Source: a virus
Strand: one strand, 5' to 3'
Length of the DNA stretch: 23,894 nucleotides
Virus record (IMG/VR): IMGVR_UViG_3300037502_001361
Span: 1 to 23,894 of that record
Position 1 is the first letter of the stretch. Each line of letters starts with the position of its first letter. A program made the position numbers and the translations under genes. The notes beneath the pieces are model-generated. The model ran no database searches. It was given only the letters and a program-made list of their open reading frames with translations, and was not told the origin of the DNA. Shown here piece by piece: positions 11,934-23,894 of the stretch.

Positions 11934-13355
11934 TTAGCAGTTATAGCGATCTGCCATGATGGTCTTCATCATCATTCCTTCAGGAGTGAACTCCTGAGGG
12001 TCTGCACCAAGAATGCTTGCCATGATGCTTGGGCTGAAGCCAGAGACCAAAGCCGCACCAGACTTGTCACTCTTGACTGGAACATTACCACTGCTGTTAA
12101 GGTTCCAGAAGACCACGCTAGGAACAGTGTACCCAGCTTGTGCGTACTTACGTTCGATCATCTGCATAGCAGAATCGTCGTGACGTACACACTGGTTGAA
12201 TTGCATGTCACTCAAGATCAAGACCATGCTAGGCATGTCGCTTTGAGGAACATTGTTCTTCACAGCGGTGCTTAGGATCTTGTCGAAAGCAGCATGTAGA
12301 TTGGTACTCATACCCCAAGTGGACTTAACCATTTGGTCAACCTTCTGAACGATGTTACCCTTAAGGGTCAACAGTTCAGGCTTTTCGCTGAAAGTCAAGA
12401 ACGTGTCCTTGAACACACCCTTGTTCTTGTCAGCCAAGTACAACCCTAGCGACACAGAAACATCCAAACACGTAACCTTAGTGTCCTTACCAGCAGGGCT
12501 GGACATAGAACCGCTAACGTCAACGATAGGAAGGATATTCGCATCGTTCATGTAGTTAGGCAATGCTTCCCACTGCATAGTCAAGTGATCCAACTCAGTC
12601 TTGTTCAGAGTCTTGCGACCGTACAGACTGATGATGTCCTTCAAGACTTCATGAGGGAACACTGCGTTGGCGTTAACCTTAACGGTCTTATCGCCACTAA
12701 CCAGCTTAGCCACATATTCTGCAAACTTTACAGAATGACGGTTGAACGCCTTCTTGTAAATACGTGCGGCCTGCGAAGGCACGTGACTAAAGTTGATGTT
12801 ATCCCAGTCGTTGGCACACATTTGCGATTCGACGACCTTGGTCATACCAACAAGGGTCTTACGGTATTGCTTTGGGGTCATACCGAAGAACTCACGGATT
12901 TCACGTGCTACTTCACCCTTACGCGGAGTCCACTTTGCAGCCAACCCATTGCTTTGACGAAGGTGGTCACCCAACAGAGTGTAAGCCTTAGCCTTCATGT
13001 CTTGCGACTTGAAGACCAACAGGTCATCGAAACGACCAAGTTCAGGCACACGATTCATCAAACGAACTGCCGCATCCGGATCGGTCTTTTCCAGATGAGT
13101 AAGAATGTCACGGAACAACTGACGTTCACCTGCACCACTACGTGCGTCACGTGCCCACAATGCGATACGCAATGCGAGGTCACGGTCTTGCACATAAGCC
13201 GCAGTGAACTGCGGAACGATGTTCTTACCACGGCTTGCACCGATGTTGTAGAACAGATCAACCAATGCGTTTGCACTGGACTTGCGAGCCTTCATACCGT
13301 TAGCGGTACGTGCTTCTTGATTTGCGATTGCGTTTACAAATGCGTTCATTTTCAT
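11934..13355 (-). CDS. Ro60-like TROVE/vWA protein (DUF2828 type)
   Basis: 473 residues. Residues about 25-260 form an all-helical region (RKSSANALVDLFYNIGASRG, ALRIALWARDARSGAGERQL, NRVPELGRFDDLLVF), the TROVE/HEAT-type ring of Ro60 relatives. Residues 272-455 are a von Willebrand A domain with an intact metal site: DVSGS at 279-283, Thr351 and Asp383 (ILSDMQF). Ro60 proteins bind misfolded RNAs and Y RNAs and, in bacteria, can tether an exonuclease. The vWA metal site is complete here. AAGGAAA lies before two possible ATGs (13355 and 13349); the second has better spacing. Structured non-coding DNA lies on both sides. Confidence 0.85.
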   Translation of the reverse strand: MKMNAFVNAIANQEARTANGMKARKSSANALVDLFYNIGASRGKNIVPQFTAAYVQDRDLALRIALWARDARSGAGERQLFRDILTHLEKTDPDAAVRLMNRVPELGRFDDLLVFKSQDMKAKAYTLLGDHLRQSNGLAAKWTPRKGEVAREIREFFGMTPKQYRKTLVGMTKVVESQMCANDWDNINFSHVPSQAARIYKKAFNRHSVKFAEYVAKLVSGDKTVKVNANAVFPHEVLKDIISLYGRKTLNKTELDHLTMQWEALPNYMNDANILPIVDVSGSMSSPAGKDTKVTCLDVSVSLGLYLADKNKGVFKDTFLTFSEKPELLTLKGNIVQKVDQMVKSTWGMSTNLHAAFDKILSTAVKNNVPQSDMPSMVLILSDMQFNQCVRHDDSAMQMIERKYAQAGYTVPSVVFWNLNSSGNVPVKSDKSGAALVSGFSPSIMASILGADPQEFTPEGMMMKTIMADRYNC

Positions 13356-17225: not shown

Positions 17226-17323
17226 TTTATTCTAAAACACACCGTTCCTACTTCATTATTCCCGTATTAGACAAAGCAGGGTACTTTTGTGGGAACCTGC
17301 ACGTCGATGTGTTTTAGAATAAA
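17226..17323 (-). repeat. Inverted-repeat-closed element A
   Basis: TTTATTCTAAAACACA and TGTGTTTTAGAATAAA pair perfectly over 16 bp and enclose 66 bases. Inside, GCAGG pairs with CCTGC, and GTTCC can pair with a later GGAAC, so a pseudoknot is possible. It lies between the large RNA and tRNA-Leu(TAG), nine bases before that tRNA. About 98 nt in all, the size of a Y RNA. Its TGTGTTT arm resembles those of elements B and C. Confidence 0.7.
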
Positions 17324-18346
17324 GCCCAGGGCTGAGATTACACCCTAAGCTAGTAACACCTCGGACATTATTGTATTCCTTGCGAGAATACTTTCTTCCG
17401 ATATCCACTGCAACCTCATCACTGAGTATCACAGTCTGTTACCAGCATCGCCGTTTAGAGTCAGGCAGTAGACTTGACATTGTATGCTATTCTACGCTTT
17501 CCATTCCGTTGAGCTTGCGACCCATTAAGCCTTGCGGGCTACGAAACATCCTGCATAAACTGATTTCACCTTGCGAGTTACGTCAGACTTGATTACCCGA
17601 GGGTTCAAGTATTAGATGCTTTTCACATACAACCGAGGCAGTCTTTGCATTTTTAATCGATAGAAGGAGTTGAACCTTCAGCCGACTCCTTAACAGGGAG
17701 TTGATCTACCATTGATCTATATCAACCTACTATGATGTGCTGCCTCAGTTGCTACATAACCTTTTGGGCTACGTAATACAACACACCACGTACCTTTTGT
17801 CTCGCGGACTACTCAGTCGTATTTTGCGATCGGTGTCACCCTTCCATAAGTCGGATGCCACTAACCACTCATACTGCGTACACGCCCTTAGATGCGACCC
17901 TTCGGACAATATACACTACCCTTTCTCATACCAATTGACAAGTTGGTTTTGTGTTGAGGTCAGCACCACCTGTTACTCTCTGTCTGCCTGTCTTACCCTT
18001 GCGGGGACTTAAACAGACATTCTTTCCAACACACTTGCTTCATTGTTACATCCACCGGTCTTATCAGTGAACGCACCCTCGCGGGTGTGAGCAGGCTTGC
18101 ATAGATGAACCATTGCTGGCGCAGTCGTGTAGGACGATTCTGCTTTGGGCTACTCACGTAGCTTATTCTAAAGAGGCTATGCCCCCAATTCTTAACATTG
18201 TTGAACACACTATCAACGTCTTGGTAGGAGACGCATCTTTCACTGGGCTACCACCGCCAGTTACATAGCATGTAGTATGCTCAACAATGCTAAGAAAATT
18301 TCTTAGCTATAACTTTTTAAAGATCGTTGCTGATTTCTCAGCGTAT
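17324..18346 (-). ncRNA. Large structured RNA (GOLLD/ROOL-like class), about 1.0 kb
   Basis: No gene exists here on either strand. A sigma-70 promoter sits at its 5' end. Minus-strand hairpins include GCTGA-GAAA-TCAGC (18342-18329), GCTAAGAA/TTCTTAGC (18307-18289), GCTAC-GTGA-GTAGC (18162-18149), GCAG+TCGT/ACGA+CTGC (18143-18121), CACCC-GCGA-GGGTG (18087-18074), TGTCTG/CAGACA closing CCC-GCAA-GGG (18019-17981) and GTATTC/GAATAC around C-GCAA-G (17391-17373). CATTGTTGA pairs with TCAACAATG at a distance. A tRNA-Asn-like domain is held in a 12-bp stem. Size, GNRA loops, phage context and neighbouring tRNAs match GOLLD and ROOL, but I cannot test membership. Both ends are approximate. Confidence 0.8.
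17655..17726 (-). tRNA. tRNA-Asn(GTT)-like domain embedded in the large RNA
   Basis: GTTGATA/TATCGAT acceptor, D-arm GATC-AATGGTA-GATC, anticodon loop CTGTTAA on ACTCC/GGAGT, T-arm GAAGG-TTCAACT-CCTTC. Every tRNA arm is present. Unlike all other tRNAs here, no CCA is encoded (AAA follows), the first pair is G1-U72, and the discriminator is U rather than the usual G of asparagine. It is held by the helix 17740-17751 with 17630-17641. It may be a real tRNA released by processing, or a structural mimic. Confidence 0.85.
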
Positions 18347-19948: not shown

Positions 19949-20571
19949 ATTTCGATATTCGGGGGCAGTTCTTTTAAATCGATGCCTTTATCCTGCAAAT
20001 CTTGCAGTCCTTCATCACTTAACTTGACAAAACCATATATAACCTTTTCGTGAGGCTCACCATGAATAAGTCTAGTGTAATGATATCCGTCTTGGGATAT
20101 ATCTACTATTTTTTTACCAGTTAATAGTTCAGCATATTGATTTGGTACAGGTTTGGCTCCGCTACGTTTCATCAGTATTTCAGCAGGACCACTAACTTCT
20201 GCCCAACTACGCTTCATTTTAACATCACCTTTTTTCAGCATTTCATAGTCACTAAGACCTTGTGCTGTGGCTTTGTATCGTTCTTTTGTCGGATCAAAAT
20301 CTGTTTCAGTTGCGCTGGCTATGACCTTAAATGTTTTAGTTTTGGGAGATTTCTTGTATATATTGACCGCAGTAATCTTGTCACCACGACGAACAACCTT
20401 CCAATAACCAGGCTCATTAACTAATTCTTCTAAGCTGGCTGCACTCTTAAAGCCGCCGATTTTTTGATAACTACGTTGGAGCATATCCCATACTTGTTTA
20501 GCATATGGGATTTTATCTTCGGGTGTGTGAAGATTTAACACTCTCTCTATTAAAAATTCTCTATAGCGCAT
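19945..20571 (-). CDS. Conserved phage protein, function unknown
   Basis: 208 residues from the ATG at 20571; a TTG three bases earlier is less likely. The start MRYREFLIERVLNLH is the tag-like phage N-terminus. Then come KQVWDMLQRSYQKIGGFKSA, GYWKVVRRGDKITAVNIYK, MKRSWAEVSGPAEILMKRSG and DGYHYTRLIHGEPHEKVIYG. I recognise this sequence pattern from other phages. The alpha/beta order hints at an acyltransferase-like (GNAT) fold, but I see no clear acetyl-CoA loop. Element B ends eight bases before the ATG, and its last bases GGTGA are the only candidate ribosome site. Confidence 0.7.
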   Translation of the reverse strand: MRYREFLIERVLNLHTPEDKIPYAKQVWDMLQRSYQKIGGFKSAASLEELVNEPGYWKVVRRGDKITAVNIYKKSPKTKTFKVIASATETDFDPTKERYKATAQGLSDYEMLKKGDVKMKRSWAEVSGPAEILMKRSGAKPVPNQYAELLTGKKIVDISQDGYHYTRLIHGEPHEKVIYGFVKLSDEGLQDLQDKGIDLKELPPNIEI

Positions 20572-20582
20572 CAACTATTTAT

Positions 20583-20675
20583 CACCATATTGAAACACAC
20601 TTAAACACTGCTTCAGCCTGGATCTGGCTATCTCGGAGAGTCCATCCGCGCATGTGTATGTGTTTCAATATGGTG
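20583..20675 (-). repeat. Inverted-repeat-closed element B, sharing the tRNA-Leu(CAA) 3' end
   Basis: CACCATATTGAAACACA and TGTGTTTCAATATGGTG pair over 17 bp around 59 bases. The first five bases of the 5' arm (CACCA) are C72, A73 and CCA of tRNA-Leu(CAA). Inside, GGAT/ATCC continues into a GG/CC-CT/AG helix with a CGA loop. The plus-strand arm recurs with 18 identical bases at 23777-23794. Length 93 nt. Confidence 0.75.
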
Positions 20676-20747
20676 CCCCAAGAGGGATTCGAACCCTCAA
20701 AATTCGGATTTTGAATCCGACACGTATACCGATTCCGTCATCGGGGC
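20671..20747 (-). tRNA. tRNA-Leu(CAA) with short variable loop
   Basis: Acceptor GCCCCGA/TTGGGGC, D-arm GACGGAATCGGTATACGT, anticodon loop TTCAAAA on TCGGA/TCCGA, variable loop ATTTT (five bases), T-arm GAGGG-TTCGAAT-CCCTC, A73 and encoded CCA. Closely related to tRNA-Leu(TAG) at 17140. Its 3' end is also part of a long stem with downstream sequence (element B). Confidence 0.93.
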
Positions 20748-20752
20748 ATGTT

Positions 20753-20846
20753 TGGCGGAAGTGGTGAGATTCGAACTCACGGCCCTGGGGTTACCAGAGC
20801 GGCAGTTTTCAAGACTGCTGCAATAAACCAACTCTGCCACACTTCC
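20753..20846 (-). tRNA. tRNA-Ser(TGA)
   Basis: Acceptor GGAAGTG/CACTTCC, anticodon loop CTTGAAA on GCAGT/ACTGC, long variable arm closed by CTGG/CCAG, T-arm GTGAG-TTCGAAT-CTCAC, G73 (serine identity) and encoded CCA. A normal class II tRNA, unlike two of the leucine tRNAs. Confidence 0.96.
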
Positions 20847-20854
20847 TAAATATT

Positions 20855-20932
20855 TGGAGCACCGGGTAGGATTTGAACCTACGAATCAACGGGTTTGCAA
20901 TCCGAGCCATTAAGCCTCTCTGGTACCGGTGC
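20855..20932 (-). tRNA. tRNA-Cys(GCA)
   Basis: Acceptor GCACCGG/CCGGTGC, anticodon loop TTGCAAA, T-arm GTAGG-TTCAAAT-CCTAC, U73 (cysteine identity) and encoded CCA. The anticodon stem TCGGA/CCCGT has mismatches at both ends, so the stem is weak. Confidence 0.88.
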
Positions 20933-20933
20933 A

Positions 20934-21296
20934 TTAGATACTACTAATACTTTTCCATCCAAATTTCCTAGCACATTGAATACTAACTTTCATTGCTGCT
21001 GCACAAGGAAATTTATGATTCTTTTTGAAACGCCATCCATTCAAATAGAATGGCTTTAATACACGATCACCGTTCCACCAACTACGTTCTATTTTAATAT
21101 AACCAAGTTCTTCTAACTGATTACGCAGTTTGGTAAATTCATCATGATCTTTATTACTGATACTAACAGCCTTATCATAACCCATCAATGATTTGATAAG
21201 GTCATCGTGAGTAGGGTTGTTACGATCCTTGATAAAATCGTGTTCAGTCCTAACAACAACATCACAAATAAATTTTTCATCAATCGTAAAGTACAT
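20934..21296 (-). CDS. Small protein of unknown function (120 residues)
   Basis: The frame is open into the upstream tRNA-Ser, but AGGA six bases before the ATG at 21296 sets the start (MYFTIDEKFICDVVVRTEHD). There follows a charged helical middle (DFIKDRNNPTHDDLIKSLMG), LRNQLEELGYIKIERSWWNG and a basic end with FKKNHKFPCAAAMKVSIQCA. The LxxLEELGYIxIER part looks like a winged-helix-type unit, but this is weak. I do not recognise the family. It lies between tRNA-Ser(GCT) and tRNA-Cys on the same strand, probably in the tRNA transcript. Confidence 0.6.
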   Translation of the reverse strand: MYFTIDEKFICDVVVRTEHDFIKDRNNPTHDDLIKSLMGYDKAVSISNKDHDEFTKLRNQLEELGYIKIERSWWNGDRVLKPFYLNGWRFKKNHKFPCAAAMKVSIQCARKFGWKSISSI

Positions 21297-21307
21297 GATA
21301 TATCCTT

Positions 21308-21399
21308 TGGTGGTGAGAGTGGGATTCGAACCCACGGGCCCACTTTCGTGAACCGACGGTTTAGCAAACCGCTCCCTTAGGCCTCTCGGGCACCTCACC
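21308..21399 (-). tRNA. tRNA-Ser(GCT)
   Basis: Acceptor GGTGAGG/TCTCACC, anticodon loop TTGCTAA on GCGGT/ACCGT, long variable arm (GTTCAC-GAAA-GTGGGC), T-arm GTGGG-TTCGAAT-CCCAC, A73 where serine tRNAs usually have G, and encoded CCA. One base separates it from the stop codon of the reductase gene. Confidence 0.95.
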
Positions 21400-21400
21400 T

Positions 21401-22129
21401 TTACTTCTCAACAAATGCTCTTTCTAAGACATAATCTCCGGGTTCACGCAATGAACCTTCTATCATTCCATTACCTTCACACCATTGAGCAACTTGCTTG
21501 TTAAACTCTATATTACCGCACAACATAATTTTGTCGGTTGTAGTATTTATAGGTAATATATCTTTCAACTGCTCTGTAATTCGCTTATCACCTTCGCCTG
21601 TTACTACAGGAATATAGTTAAGAATCGGTGTAACCATATCTTCTAATTCTGTACCGGCAAAATTACTACTCAGTTCATCATAATATGCTAAATCTTTTCG
21701 ATCTCTTACACTATGTACGATACTTATCGTATCCCATGTTTCAAGTGTTTCAATATCACGTATAAGACTCATGTACGGAGCAAGTCCTGTACCTGTAGCA
21801 AGCAACCATAGATTGCCGCCTTTTTTAAGAGCATCATTACGTAATGTTCCTGTTGGTTTTTCCATTACTAAAATTTCGTCACCAATAGAAATATTCTGTA
21901 ATCTACTTGTAAGTTCTCCGTGATTTATTTTAATACTTAAAAACTCCAGTTCATTTTCCCAAGGAGGACTAACTACACTGTATGCACGTAGAATTTTACG
22001 ACCGTTAATTTGCAATCCGATCATAGCAAACTCACCTGCATTAAACTTGAAACTTTGATTTCTTGTTGTTCTAAAACTAAAAGTTCGATCACTCCAATGA
22101 TGAACCCATGTAACTGTTTCTAAAAACAT
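21401..22129 (-). CDS. fpr: Ferredoxin/flavodoxin-NADP+ reductase
   Basis: 242 residues, slightly shorter than bacterial Fpr (about 257). The FAD site has RAYSVVSPP (48-56) and HGELTSRL (70-77). The NADP(H) site has LLATGTGLAPYMS (109-121), and IMLCGNIEF marks the nicotinamide region. The end GDYVLERAFVEK is the C-terminal tail of Fpr enzymes from Proteobacteria. The enzyme moves electrons between NADP(H) and ferredoxin or flavodoxin, feeding Fe-S repair, ribonucleotide reduction or desaturases. AGGTGA is before the ATG. Likely acquired from a host and kept as an auxiliary metabolic gene. Confidence 0.92.
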   Translation of the reverse strand: MFLETVTWVHHWSDRTFSFRTTRNQSFKFNAGEFAMIGLQINGRKILRAYSVVSPPWENELEFLSIKINHGELTSRLQNISIGDEILVMEKPTGTLRNDALKKGGNLWLLATGTGLAPYMSLIRDIETLETWDTISIVHSVRDRKDLAYYDELSSNFAGTELEDMVTPILNYIPVVTGEGDKRITEQLKDILPINTTTDKIMLCGNIEFNKQVAQWCEGNGMIEGSLREPGDYVLERAFVEK

Positions 22130-22151
22130 TTCACCTACTTGAAAATAAAAA

Positions 22152-22209
22152 GGAAGTAATAAGAATTACGACCTTACTAGTTGCCATCAACTAGCATCTA
22201 TGTACTTCC
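22152..22209 (-). promoter_or_regulatory. Two-tier hairpin in the fpr leader
   Basis: Minus strand GGAAGTA (22209-22203) pairs with TACTTCC (22158-22152). Inside, CTAGTTG and CAACTAG form a second perfect stem around ATGG. TTTTTATTTT follows the outer stem, so it could act as an attenuator or terminator between tRNA-Met and fpr. The AGGTGA ribosome site comes after it. Confidence 0.6.
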
Positions 22210-22250
22210 ATGTAGTATATTTACTGTTTAATACAAGACAGTAAAATTAG

Positions 22251-22327
22251 TGGTGCCTCCGACAGGACTCGAACCTGTAACCAATGGATTATGAGTCCAC
22301 TGCTCTGACCAATTGAGCTACAGAGGC
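22251..22327 (-). tRNA. tRNA-Met(CAT), elongator, or tRNA-Ile(CAT)
   Basis: Acceptor GCCTCTG/CGGAGGC with normal G1-C72, D-arm with AATTGGTCAGAGC, anticodon loop CTCATAA on GTGGA/TCCAT, T-arm ACAGG-TTCGAGT-CCTGT, A73, encoded CCA. It is not an initiator. A CAT anticodon can be methionine, or isoleucine after lysidine modification; the sequence has traits of both. Confidence 0.93.
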
Positions 22328-22336
22328 ATTTTTGAT

Positions 22337-22538
22337 CACCATATTATAATACACTCCCACCGGGTGTCTAGTCCGATGTACCGTGTTGCCGAGCCAATGC
22401 TAGTCTAACTGATAATAAATTTATATCCTTTCGGATATAATTTGACTATTCTCGGGTTCTTTATCTTTTAAAAGAATGGGCAGGCTATGTCCCGTCAATA
22501 ATATAATATATTAGACAGAAGTGTACTATAATATGGTG
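22337..22538 (-). repeat. Inverted-repeat-closed element D, sharing the tRNA-Leu(TAA) 3' end
   Basis: CACCATATTATAGTACACT and AGTGTATTATAATATGGTG pair at 18 of 19 positions plus one G-U. As in element B, the CACCA of the 5' arm is C72-A73-CCA of the tRNA. Inside are nested helices CCGAG/CTCGG, TAGTC/GACTA and TTATATCC-GAAA-GGATATAA, an 8-bp stem with a GNRA loop. Length 202 nt. No gene is present. Confidence 0.75.
22343..22370 (-). promoter_or_regulatory. Possible promoter inside element D (TAGACA-16-TATAAT)
   Basis: Minus strand TAGACA (22370-22365), 16 bp, TATAAT (22348-22343). The TATAAT forms part of the 3' arm of element D. It would start transcription just before the tRNA-Met(CAT). Confidence 0.5.
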
Positions 22539-22623
22539 CCCGAGGCCGGAGTCGAACCGGCATGCCCCTTTCGGAAGCGACGGATTTTAAGTCCGTAGTG
22601 TCTACCTATTTCACCACTCGGGC
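22534..22623 (-). tRNA. tRNA-Leu(TAA), normal long variable arm
   Basis: Acceptor GCCCGAG/CTCGGGC, anticodon loop CTTAAAA on ACGGA/TCCGT, variable arm with CTTCC-GAAA-GGGG, T-arm GCCGG-TTCGACT-CCGGC, A73, encoded CCA. First tRNA after the promoter at 22660. Confidence 0.96.
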
Positions 22624-22659
22624 AAGAAAACTCTTGTTAGTTGTTAAAGAACAGATGCT

Positions 22660-22688
22660 AGTATATAACATCCACGTATTATTGTCAA
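22660..22688 (-). promoter_or_regulatory. Sigma-70 promoter of the tRNA array
   Basis: Minus strand TTGACA (22688-22683), 17 bp, TATACT (22665-22660). The start would be near 22653, about 30 bases before tRNA-Leu(TAA). It can drive the tRNAs and fpr down to about 20.9 kb. Confidence 0.88.
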
Positions 22689-22692
22689 TGAA

Positions 22693-22896
22693 TTTGTTAA
22701 GTGTCTGTTGCCACATACATCAACAGCATTATCCGCAAATTATGGGCCCTGCGGTTATAAGATTTCTCTCTTAGGGTACGTCACAATAGTAGTCAGCGGC
22801 AGGGTACCATGATGCGTCCTCGAACCGTCAACTTTTACTTGCTTCCGTCTTGCAAAACTTCCACAAGTGCTTTCTACTAGAGACACACTTAACAAA
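22693..22896 (-). repeat. Inverted-repeat-closed element E
   Basis: TTTGTTAAGTGT and ACACTTAACAAA pair over 12 bp (with CT/AG continuing past a two-base bulge), enclosing about 170 bases. Interior hairpins are CTGTTG/CAACAG and CCGCA/TGCGG. It starts three bases after the CCA of tRNA-Trp and ends just before the promoter at 22660-22688. No gene is present in it. Confidence 0.65.
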
Positions 22897-22899
22897 ACT

Positions 22900-22974
22900 T
22901 GGCGTACCCCGAGGGATTCGAACCCCCACCAGCGGTTTTGGAGACCGTCATGCTGCCGTTGACACCAGGGATAC
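22900..22974 (-). tRNA. tRNA-Trp(CCA)
   Basis: Acceptor GTATCCC/GGGGTAC, anticodon loop CTCCAAA, T-arm GGGGG-TTCGAAT-CCCTC, G73 (tryptophan identity) and encoded CCA. The anticodon stem ACGGT/ACCGC has one A-C mismatch at its base. The D-arm is short. Confidence 0.9.
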
Positions 22975-22982
22975 ATAAACTT

Positions 22983-23059
22983 TGGCGATGCGTACCGGGC
23001 TCGAACCGGTGACCACTTGCGTGACAGGCAAGTATTCTAACCAACTGAACTAACGCACC
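22983..23059 (-). tRNA. tRNA-Asp(GTC)
   Basis: Acceptor GGTGCGT/ACGCATC, D-arm with AGTTGGTTAGAA, anticodon loop CTGTCAC on CTTGC/GCAAG, T-arm ACCGG-TTCGAGC-CCGGT, G73 (aspartate identity), encoded CCA. Eight bases before tRNA-Trp in the same precursor. Confidence 0.96.
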
Positions 23060-23062
23060 ACA

Positions 23063-23071
23063 TATAAATAT
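23063..23071 (+). promoter_or_regulatory. T4-late-like promoter box TATAAATAT
   Basis: TATAAATA matches the T4 late consensus and lies 22 bases before the plus-strand ATG at 23093. This is the only plus-strand gene in the right half, and no sigma-70 promoter is seen for it, which supports late control. Confidence 0.5.
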
Positions 23072-23092
23072 ACTTATTATTTAACTATTCCA

Positions 23093-23680
23093 ATGTACAC
23101 TGAACTAAGCCTTCCACCACTCTCAAAGCAAATAAAAGACTATGTTAGTTATGTACAATCCAAATATAGCGATGATAGATATTTTATCAAAGCTAAGAAA
23201 TTTGCTGAAGGGAACAACCCGAATATAAATTGTGCGGGTTGTTTATATCATACTGATTATGTTTTGACATATCTACTAAAAAAAGAATTTGGTAATCTGT
23301 TCTCAGAAGATTTCAAAGGACAACTACTACAATTTAAAAACCTAAATCCATCCTTTAGCACCGCATCCTATCCGCCACATACTGACGTTGGTAAAGCGTT
23401 AAACATAAATTATGTATTAGATACCGGTGGACCAAATGTTAAGACTGTATTTTACGACACTCCGCAATTCGCTGACACCTTAGACGGTATCACACAACCT
23501 CATCAAAATTTAACAACACATACCATTTTACATACTGAACCAAACCATTGGTACATGTTGGATGTAAAAAAATTACATAGTGTCGAATCTATTGATACCT
23601 GTAGAACTGTACTGTGTTTGGGATTCAAATCCATATCTTATAACGATTTTGTCATAAAATATAACAGCCTACTTAAGTGA
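23093..23680 (+). CDS. 2-oxoglutarate/Fe(II) oxygenase-like protein
   Basis: 195 residues. YPPHTDVGKALNINYVLDTG supplies His96-x-Asp98 of a double-stranded beta-helix. LHSVESIDTCRTVLCLGF supplies the distal His162 and, nine residues later, Arg171, the usual 2-oxoglutarate partner. The order HxD...H...R at these spacings is that of small Fe(II) oxygenases, including phage hydroxylases. The N-terminal 80 residues are helical and unassigned; they include a C-A-G-C pair. The substrate (protein, base or sugar) cannot be read. It converges on the tRNA-Tyr-like gene with no gap. No Shine-Dalgarno sequence. Confidence 0.65.
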   Translation: MYTELSLPPLSKQIKDYVSYVQSKYSDDRYFIKAKKFAEGNNPNINCAGCLYHTDYVLTYLLKKEFGNLFSEDFKGQLLQFKNLNPSFSTASYPPHTDVGKALNINYVLDTGGPNVKTVFYDTPQFADTLDGITQPHQNLTTHTILHTEPNHWYMLDVKKLHSVESIDTCRTVLCLGFKSISYNDFVIKYNSLLK

Positions 23681-23768
23681 TGGTGGGTGTTGATGGTAAC
23701 GCTCCACGAACTCGACTTCCCACCTCTCAGAGTAACGGATTTACAGTCCGCCGGCGGGGGCAACACCC
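23681..23768 (-). tRNA. tRNA-Tyr(GTA)-like gene with aberrant D- and T-arms
   Basis: Acceptor GGGTGTT/AACACCC with A73 and encoded CCA, and anticodon stem-loop GCGGA-CTGTAAA-TCCGT, match tyrosine tRNA well. A variable arm CTC-TGA-GAG is present. But the D-arm region is only GCCCCCGCCG (10 bases), and the T-stem GGTGG/CCATC encloses 23 bases rather than the seven-base TTCRANY loop. It may be a degraded copy, a tRNA with an inserted segment, or a tRNA-like RNA with another role. Confidence 0.6.
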
Positions 23769-23775
23769 ATATTCT

Positions 23776-23894
23776 TACCATATTGAAACACACTCTGCCA
23801 CGGTTCTCACGTGCGACTATCCCACCCTTGCGGATCTTACACCATTTTCTGGATTGCTTATTCTCAGCCTACCTAGGATGCGGGGAGAATAAGT
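23776..23894 (-). repeat. Element C: 3' arm copy of element B plus structured sequence (runs off the window)
   Basis: AGTGTGTTTCAATATGGT on the minus strand matches the 3' arm of element B in all 18 bases and again sits just before a tRNA-type gene. The partner arm is expected beyond 23894. Within the visible part CTTATTCTC and GAGAATAAG pair around 19 bases, and GATCC-GCAA-GGGT carries a GNRA-type loop. No gene. Confidence 0.55.

Follow-up and report, generated by a model that had tools for sequence, protein, structure and literature searches.

Hairpins opening at tRNA CCA ends belong to a family of exchangeable elements in the RNA arrays of uncultured phages

Two tRNA-Leu genes in a 23.9-kb virus fragment from IMG/VR (IMGVR_UViG_3300037502_001361, positions 1 to 23,894; the whole stretch is referred to below as the window) are each followed by a long inverted repeat, hairpin B or hairpin D, whose first strand contains the CCA end of the tRNA itself. 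In the window, 16 tRNAs are called, all on the minus strand, alongside one GOLLD RNA (ARAGORN, Rfam). This locus raises the question of what such a hairpin is and what it might do to the RNA whose end it holds. An initial annotation of the window had proposed, from the differences between the two copies, that the helix is under selection and that the tRNA 3' end would be base-paired in the primary transcript. As far as sequence can tell, the hairpin is probably an RNA-processing mark.

Hairpins B and D and the helix of their family

The two tRNA genes and their hairpins lie as follows.

20671..20747, minus strand: tRNA-Leu(CAA) (ARAGORN; Rfam tRNA, 64.4 bits), whose encoded CCA at 20671-20673 opens the 5' arm of hairpin B
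20583..20675, minus strand: hairpin B, an inverted repeat with 5' arm 20659-20675, core 20600-20658 and 3' arm 20583-20599
22534..22623, minus strand: tRNA-Leu(UAA) (ARAGORN; Rfam, 57.8 bits), whose CCA at 22534-22536 opens hairpin D
22337..22538, minus strand: hairpin D, with 5' arm 22520-22538, a 164-nt core and 3' arm 22337-22355

Read on the minus strand, the arms of hairpin B, CACCATATTGAAACACA and TGTGTTTCAATATGGTG, are complementary at 17/17 positions with 59 nt between them, and those of hairpin D, CACCATATTATAGTACACT and AGTGTATTATAATATGGTG, form 18/19 Watson-Crick pairs across 164 nt, the remaining pair being G.U. Both stems are therefore real and lie where the initial annotation placed them, each opening, as it had noticed, at C72-A73-C74-C75-A76 of the upstream tRNA-Leu; its single range of 20583-22538 does contain the stems but runs two separate elements into one span. 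Compared to dinucleotide shuffles, the B and D regions fold with z = -4.95 and z = -4.96, respectively, and in both predicted folds the tRNA acceptor stem directly abuts the hairpin.

Hairpins B and D share a family consensus, in which CCATATTGAARCACATT is followed by a variable core, ~27-130 nt long and 164 nt in D, and then by AGTGTGTTTCAATATGG. Relatives were collected by scanning IMG/VR with a 16-base arm, TGTGTTTCAATATGGT, as seed, by adding 26 further loci through homology to a neighbouring reductase gene, and by a second IMG/VR scan with a different arm, which gave 63 new loci; they are labelled with L-numbers (L006, L041 etc.), and all family-wide counts rest on loci among the IMG/VR matches listed and are lower bounds. 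At least 223 distinct oriented hairpins were catalogued from the IMG/VR loci and the 26 reductase-homology loci, with helices of narrowly distributed length (interquartile 18-20 bp). Over the window and the loci, Rfam reported only tRNA, GOLLD and one group I intron, and no family above the gathering threshold for the hairpins.

Covariation was measured on 45 tRNA-adjacent stems free of the search seed, one per core family. Changes on both sides of the helix (compensatory) were found at 13 of the 17 pairs; 94.1% of cells were paired compared to 76.0% with shuffled partners, none of 500 shuffles reaching the observed value, and the covariation score was 0.509 compared to 0.160 upon shuffling. 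The paired fraction alone is partly given by construction, because stem detection demanded a threshold of 12/17 Watson-Crick pairs; the shuffle and slide controls are unaffected by it. Stems that depart from the consensus formed 11.49 of 13 pairs with their own partner compared to 7.05 with a randomly drawn partner. The relatives thus give strong support to selection for the helix; they were needed, since two differing copies within one genome make an insufficient argument alone.

Among non-Watson-Crick pairs, G.U outnumbered A.C by 243 to 57 (one hairpin per core cluster), although much of this excess comes from position 16 and the orientation of the non-tRNA hairpins was scored on those very bases. 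In the tRNA-adjacent set, where orientation is independent, the counts were 141 and 34, position 16 being a U.G pair in 74 of 113 hairpins and C.A in none. The preponderance of G.U favours, without proving it, selection acting on the RNA. Hairpins that do not stand beside a called tRNA are also strand-specific, with 98/110 on the majority tRNA strand.

The clasp on the CCA end was assessed by searching for any stem beginning right after CCA, with no condition on the CCA itself and the 3' arm left unanchored. Stems of at least 13/14 pairs were found directly after the CCA of 180 of 1944 tRNAs, compared to 1-16 of 1850 at five control offsets, and in 158 of these 180 the 3' strand ran on as TGG opposite the CCA, confirming the proposal that the CCA end is base-paired in the stem. 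From this arrangement we infer that the pairing may delay maturation or mark a cut site, as had also been suggested. All 114 of 114 hairpin-bearing tRNAs encode CCA. Opposite N73 the stem mostly has a T, irrespective of the identity of N73, which points to fixed sequence rather than covariation at that position. At the far end of the helix, 18 downstream tRNAs have the GG of the 3' arm as their own G1G2; new independent loci gave a further 17, and no tRNA begins 0-3 nt after the GG. Two other readings of the 3' arm were rejected. Pairing with the 5' arm of the following RNA gave 10.9/13 pairs compared to 12.6/13 with its own arm, and a promoter for a single-subunit RNA polymerase was dropped because changes in the 5' and 3' arms covary as hairpins.

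Hairpins, cores and RNAs across phage arrays

The 5' arm opens at the CCA of a called tRNA in 113 of the at least 223 hairpins. Most of the others trail non-called RNAs that also end in N-CCA and comprise 17 recurring families and 46 singletons, a few of which are missed or shortened tRNA genes. Arrays of recurring structured RNAs that end in N-CCA and are neither tRNA nor Rfam members were seen in L028, L062, L112, L110, L031, L084, L023 and others, and some N-CCA RNAs resemble tRNAs with odd or missing anticodon arms (e.g. in L118 and L031).

The family is carried by many uncultured phages, most of them T4-like. Of 22 records, 7 have a T4-type major capsid gene, including all but one of those longer than 140 kb. 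Even in records of up to 400 kb, hairpins occur only within a short cluster of tRNAs and other non-coding RNAs. A search for cultured relatives gave no convincing match in 50,697 phage records, and 257 Gb of bacterial genomes held 4 exact matches, a number not above chance, two of them within tRNA clusters. Locus L154 (1-318), a contig of a Polynucleobacter metagenome-assembled genome, has a family 3' arm joined to a tRNA-Asp, next to tRNA genes of bacterial type; this junction is either a chimeric assembly or a clue to the host. In L028 (13185-13378, minus strand), a group I intron lies inside a tRNA-Leu whose CCA also bears a family hairpin. This was the only intron found, and the idea that the core of hairpin D is itself a group I intron was rejected, having no Rfam support.

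Three members of the family occur in the window beyond hairpins B and D, namely one 3' arm near its end and two diverged hairpins bracketing GOLLD.

23777..23794, minus strand: 3' arm AGTGTGTTTCAATATGGT of a further member, an exact match to the family 3' arm, the 5' arm lying beyond the window end
23681..23768, minus strand: Tyr-like tRNA gene with an unusual T arm, GTGGAGCGTTACCATCA, read from the sequence and not called by ARAGORN, 8 nt after the 3' arm at 23777-23794
17329..17789, minus strand: GOLLD RNA (3' region in Rfam, 232.9 bits), with homology extending 5' to ~18190 (BLAST)
17227..17322, minus strand: diverged family hairpin directly after GOLLD, TTATTCTAAAACACATCG / CGGTGTGTTTTAGAATAA, with no CCA (inverted repeat scan)
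18190..18295, minus strand: diverged family hairpin 5' of GOLLD (inverted repeat scan), with a core matching hairpin cores in L022, L039 and L115 (BLAST)

Tyr-like tRNA genes similar to the one at 23681-23768 also occur in L087, L111 and L048. GOLLD is an RNA cage of unknown function (PMC12286853). A hairpin trails its 3' end in the window and in 5 of 6 relatives examined: in L041 it directly follows a GOLLD ending in ...TCTCAGTCCTCCA, and in L125, L116, L055 and L080 a stem of the same type (15-16/16 pairs) begins within ~22 nt of the GOLLD end. The GOLLD of L226 has no hairpin, and the sequence of L197 is incomplete. GOLLD and its hairpins were located at 17227-18295 (minus strand) in the window, 1422-2325 in L041, 10545-11539 in L125 and 6961-7862 in L116. 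Several GOLLD RNAs in these phages end in CCA, as tRNAs do.

The hairpins are unevenly distributed among tRNA isotypes. In a set of 1344 unique tRNAs, a hairpin followed 88 of 278 Glu, Lys, Gln and Leu tRNAs compared to 26 of 1066 others (P = 1e-42, Fisher's test), with Lys(UUU) at 23/46, Glu(UUC) at 29/70 and Gln(UUG) at 12/46, and none at Met (0/109), Asp (0/56) or Cys (0/61). This grouping had been picked after seeing the data and was therefore retested on the 63 new loci found with the different arm, where the grouped isotypes again stood out (35/107 compared to 20/383, P = 8e-13); the bias of Lys, Glu and Leu replicated, that of Gln did not (1/13). The hairpin-bearing tRNA is usually the sole copy of its isotype in the locus and so presumably matures, which weakens the idea that it is a decoy. 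Anticodon loops are alike with and without a hairpin.

The cores of the hairpins do not follow their upstream RNAs. About 159 core families occur among the at least 223 hairpins; homologous cores are shared by 105 hairpin pairs, 89 of which stand behind unrelated upstream RNAs, and among 317 pairs whose upstream RNAs are homologous, 301 have unrelated cores. The same core family stands at two tRNAs in L073, and that of hairpin B recurs after a tRNA-Leu(UAA) in L062, a tRNA-Gln in L096, a tRNA-Thr in L014 and a non-tRNA RNA in L112 (BLAST and alignment), with conserved motifs and a small internal stem in which changes are paired, albeit over five sequences only. As a set, cores fold no better than shuffles (mean z -0.30); their GC content is 49% compared to ~40% for the loci.

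Exchange is visible at single sites. L119 and L067 are 100% identical upstream and 98.7% downstream of a site that holds different hairpins, of 134 and 79 nt. Two sites hold different hairpins in L111 and L048, one site holds three different hairpins in L035, L079 and L014, and L011 and L034 have different hairpins at a site that is empty in L054. Where the window has hairpin D, L006 has another hairpin, of 168 nt, and L132, L129 and L061 have none. Larger exchanges insert hairpin-RNA-hairpin blocks. Comparison of the filled and empty sites of L011, L034 and L054 revealed no obvious target-site duplication, in these few cases. Together, these alignments indicate that cores are exchangeable between phages, which would make the RNA arrays sets of swappable cassettes.

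Possible roles of the hairpins

With moderate confidence, we interpret hairpins B and D as members of a phage family of predicted transcribed hairpins that punctuate arrays of tRNAs and structured RNAs, acting as 3'-end processing marks that recombine as cassettes. The helix of ~18 bp begins at the CCA of the upstream RNA, and its 3' strand ends in GG, often G1G2 of the next tRNA. In the primary transcript it would shield the CCA end from exonucleases and present a double-stranded cut site. Host RNase III, with whose binding and cleavage a helix of this length appears compatible, or another nuclease would be the likely cutter, after which RNase P and trimming exonucleases would act. Cleavage of the duplex would release the two RNAs from each other, the upstream one at its CCA and the downstream one at its 5' end. 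The short conserved arms may double as recombination points or homologies, through which hairpins or hairpin-RNA-hairpin blocks would be gained, lost and swapped.

Two further features bear on the transcript that would include hairpin D.

22251..22327, minus strand: tRNA-Met (ARAGORN), 9 nt downstream of hairpin D
22660..22688, minus strand: promoter-like TTGACA-17-TATACT, ~37 bp upstream of tRNA-Leu(UAA) (consensus scan, 11/12 matches), in itself not evidence of function

No terminator-like site (short GC-rich stem plus T run) was found in the scanned region 20400-23894. Taken with the promoter-like site, this makes co-transcription of tRNA-Leu(UAA), hairpin D and tRNA-Met plausible. A second promoter-like sequence, TAGACA-16-TATAAT, lies at 22343-22370 (minus strand) in the core and 3' arm of hairpin D and points at tRNA-Met; by inspection it is peculiar to D, the family 3' arm consensus containing none.

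Several observations weigh against the punctuation reading. The border-crossing transcript and its cleavage are both predictions, and the two arms are more conserved in sequence than cutting by RNase III would by itself require. A search of 25 of the larger virus records gave no RNase III domain, so that the cutter would be supplied by the host or unrecognised. Punctuation by itself leaves the preference for Lys, Glu and Leu and the absence from Met unexplained, and most tRNAs in the same arrays have no hairpin. A Ro60/TROVE-like RNA-binding protein gene (phrog_850, DUF2828/DUF7788) lies in the window at 11934-13355 (minus strand); a link to the hairpins was rejected, as the gene is present in only 3 of 25 hairpin records.

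The most serious competitor, which we nevertheless consider unlikely, is that the hairpin is mainly a mobile or recombining DNA element, resembling a miniature inverted-repeat transposable element (MITE), an attC site or a promoter-early-stem-loop (PeSL) cassette, that settles by CCA ends and whose RNA pairing is a by-product. Near-identical phages with different hairpins or none at identical sites, the movement of cores between unrelated RNA genes, the core family present at two tRNAs of L073, and conserved arms around a variable middle, as in attC anatomy, would all be expected of such an element. However, 22 of the larger records were searched for Phage_integrase, Y1 transposase and reverse-transcriptase domains and contained none, DDE and serine enzymes lying outside the scope of that search. 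The hairpins are moreover confined to RNA clusters and trail RNA 3' ends in one orientation, and the excess of G.U over A.C (243 vs 57) favours selection on the RNA strand, although asymmetric DNA arms could mimic it.

A bolder synthesis strikes us as rather improbable. It would see in uncultured T4-like phages an RNA-cassette system in which tRNAs, GOLLD cages and many unnamed RNAs end in CCA, each closed by an interchangeable hairpin that a putative dedicated processing or recombination enzyme reads; the hairpin set would track those tRNAs (Lys, Glu, Leu) that host anticodon nucleases attack, and the locus would be a fast-evolving counter-defence. Another reading, in which the hairpin regulates or shields particular tRNAs, sequestering the CCA to delay charging or to alter the turnover of anticodon-nuclease targets, appears more doubtful still. 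The favoured isotypes (Lys(UUU), Glu(UUC), Gln(UUG) and Leu, with zero for Met, Asp and Cys) and the replicated bias of Lys, Glu and Leu speak for shielding, as does the fact that PrrC cleaves tRNA-Lys and T4 repairs the cut (PMC3014915). Against it, the Gln bias failed to replicate, anticodon loops do not differ between tRNAs with and without a hairpin, and GOLLD and other RNAs bear the hairpin too. To our knowledge, moreover, Leu tRNA is not a classical anticodon-nuclease target.

We give little credence to the possibility that the cores act as small structured RNAs of their own, which the stem merely excises: the motifs and paired internal-stem changes of the B core family across five contexts and the raised GC content of cores agree with it, but ~159 families among at least 223 hairpins and the failure of the cores, taken together, to fold better than shuffles speak against it. 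Chance or an ordinary intrinsic terminator is a negligible prospect, for although hairpins after tRNA genes are common in general, there is no terminator-like site in 20400-23894, and chance is excluded by covariation (0/500 shuffles) and by the offset controls (180/1944 vs 1-16/1850).

If the processing-mark interpretation is true, the hairpin would be a general 3'-end mark common to tRNAs, GOLLD and many undescribed phage RNAs, and since each RNA ends at a hairpin, a sequence handle for finding new ones. It would also provide a mechanism for the fast rebuilding of phage tRNA arrays and tie GOLLD to tRNA-like end processing. The bias toward Lys, Glu and Leu makes directly testable the question of why phages carry particular tRNAs.

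Comparison with known systems

On the features tested, the hairpin family fits none of the known systems with which it was compared, and no description of its anatomy was found in the open-licence literature, where a published description could have been missed. Integron attC sites, which stand at the 3' end of exchangeable cassettes, are imperfect inverted repeats around a variable middle; the family stem is, unlike them, nearly perfect over ~18 bp. The integron-type tyrosine recombinase domain PF00589 was found in 0/22 records (positive controls 14/14), although such an enzyme could act in trans. The Y1 transposase domain of RAYT (PF01797), a feature of REP/REPIN elements, was likewise found in 0/22, and no reverse-transcriptase domain in the same 22 records.

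Theta ribozymes, which are hepatitis delta virus (HDV)-like, are also phage RNA elements located exactly at tRNA 3' ends and proposed to form them (PMC10879173). They are self-cleaving pseudoknots with hosts among the Bacteroidota and Bacillota, and CCA is encoded by only 4.5% of the tRNAs they accompany (PMC10879173), whereas our family consists of one long helix with a non-conserved core behind tRNAs that all (114/114) encode CCA. Hammerhead, HDV and theta ribozymes were rejected, no Rfam ribozyme matching over 20400-23894 even at E up to 10; instead of an HDV-like double pseudoknot, hairpins B and D each fold as a single long hairpin, and the cores across the family are unrelated to one another.

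PeSL elements of T4-type phages are reported to consist of an early promoter plus a stem-loop/terminator (Arbiol 2010, Comeau 2014, via PMC4503421). They share with our hairpins the form of small stem-loop cassettes between genes and modular shuffling in T4-type phages, which is matched here by the flank-matched swaps and by the T4-type capsid gene in 7/22 records. Unlike PeSLs, the hairpins of the family lack a terminator tail, and they are placed on the CCA ends of RNA genes. In Neisseria, Correia elements (CREE/NEMIS) are also miniature elements with terminal inverted repeats, and RNase III can bind and cleave them (PMC2649163). They reside in bacterial chromosomes, have a conserved core and are not tied to CCA ends, unlike the family hairpins with their phage arrays, variable cores and specificity for RNA 3' ends.

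In rRNA processing stems, long duplexes cut by RNase III define the ends of stable RNAs in the primary transcript. Those stems enclose the RNA, whereas the family duplex sits between the 3' end of one RNA and the 5' end of the next.

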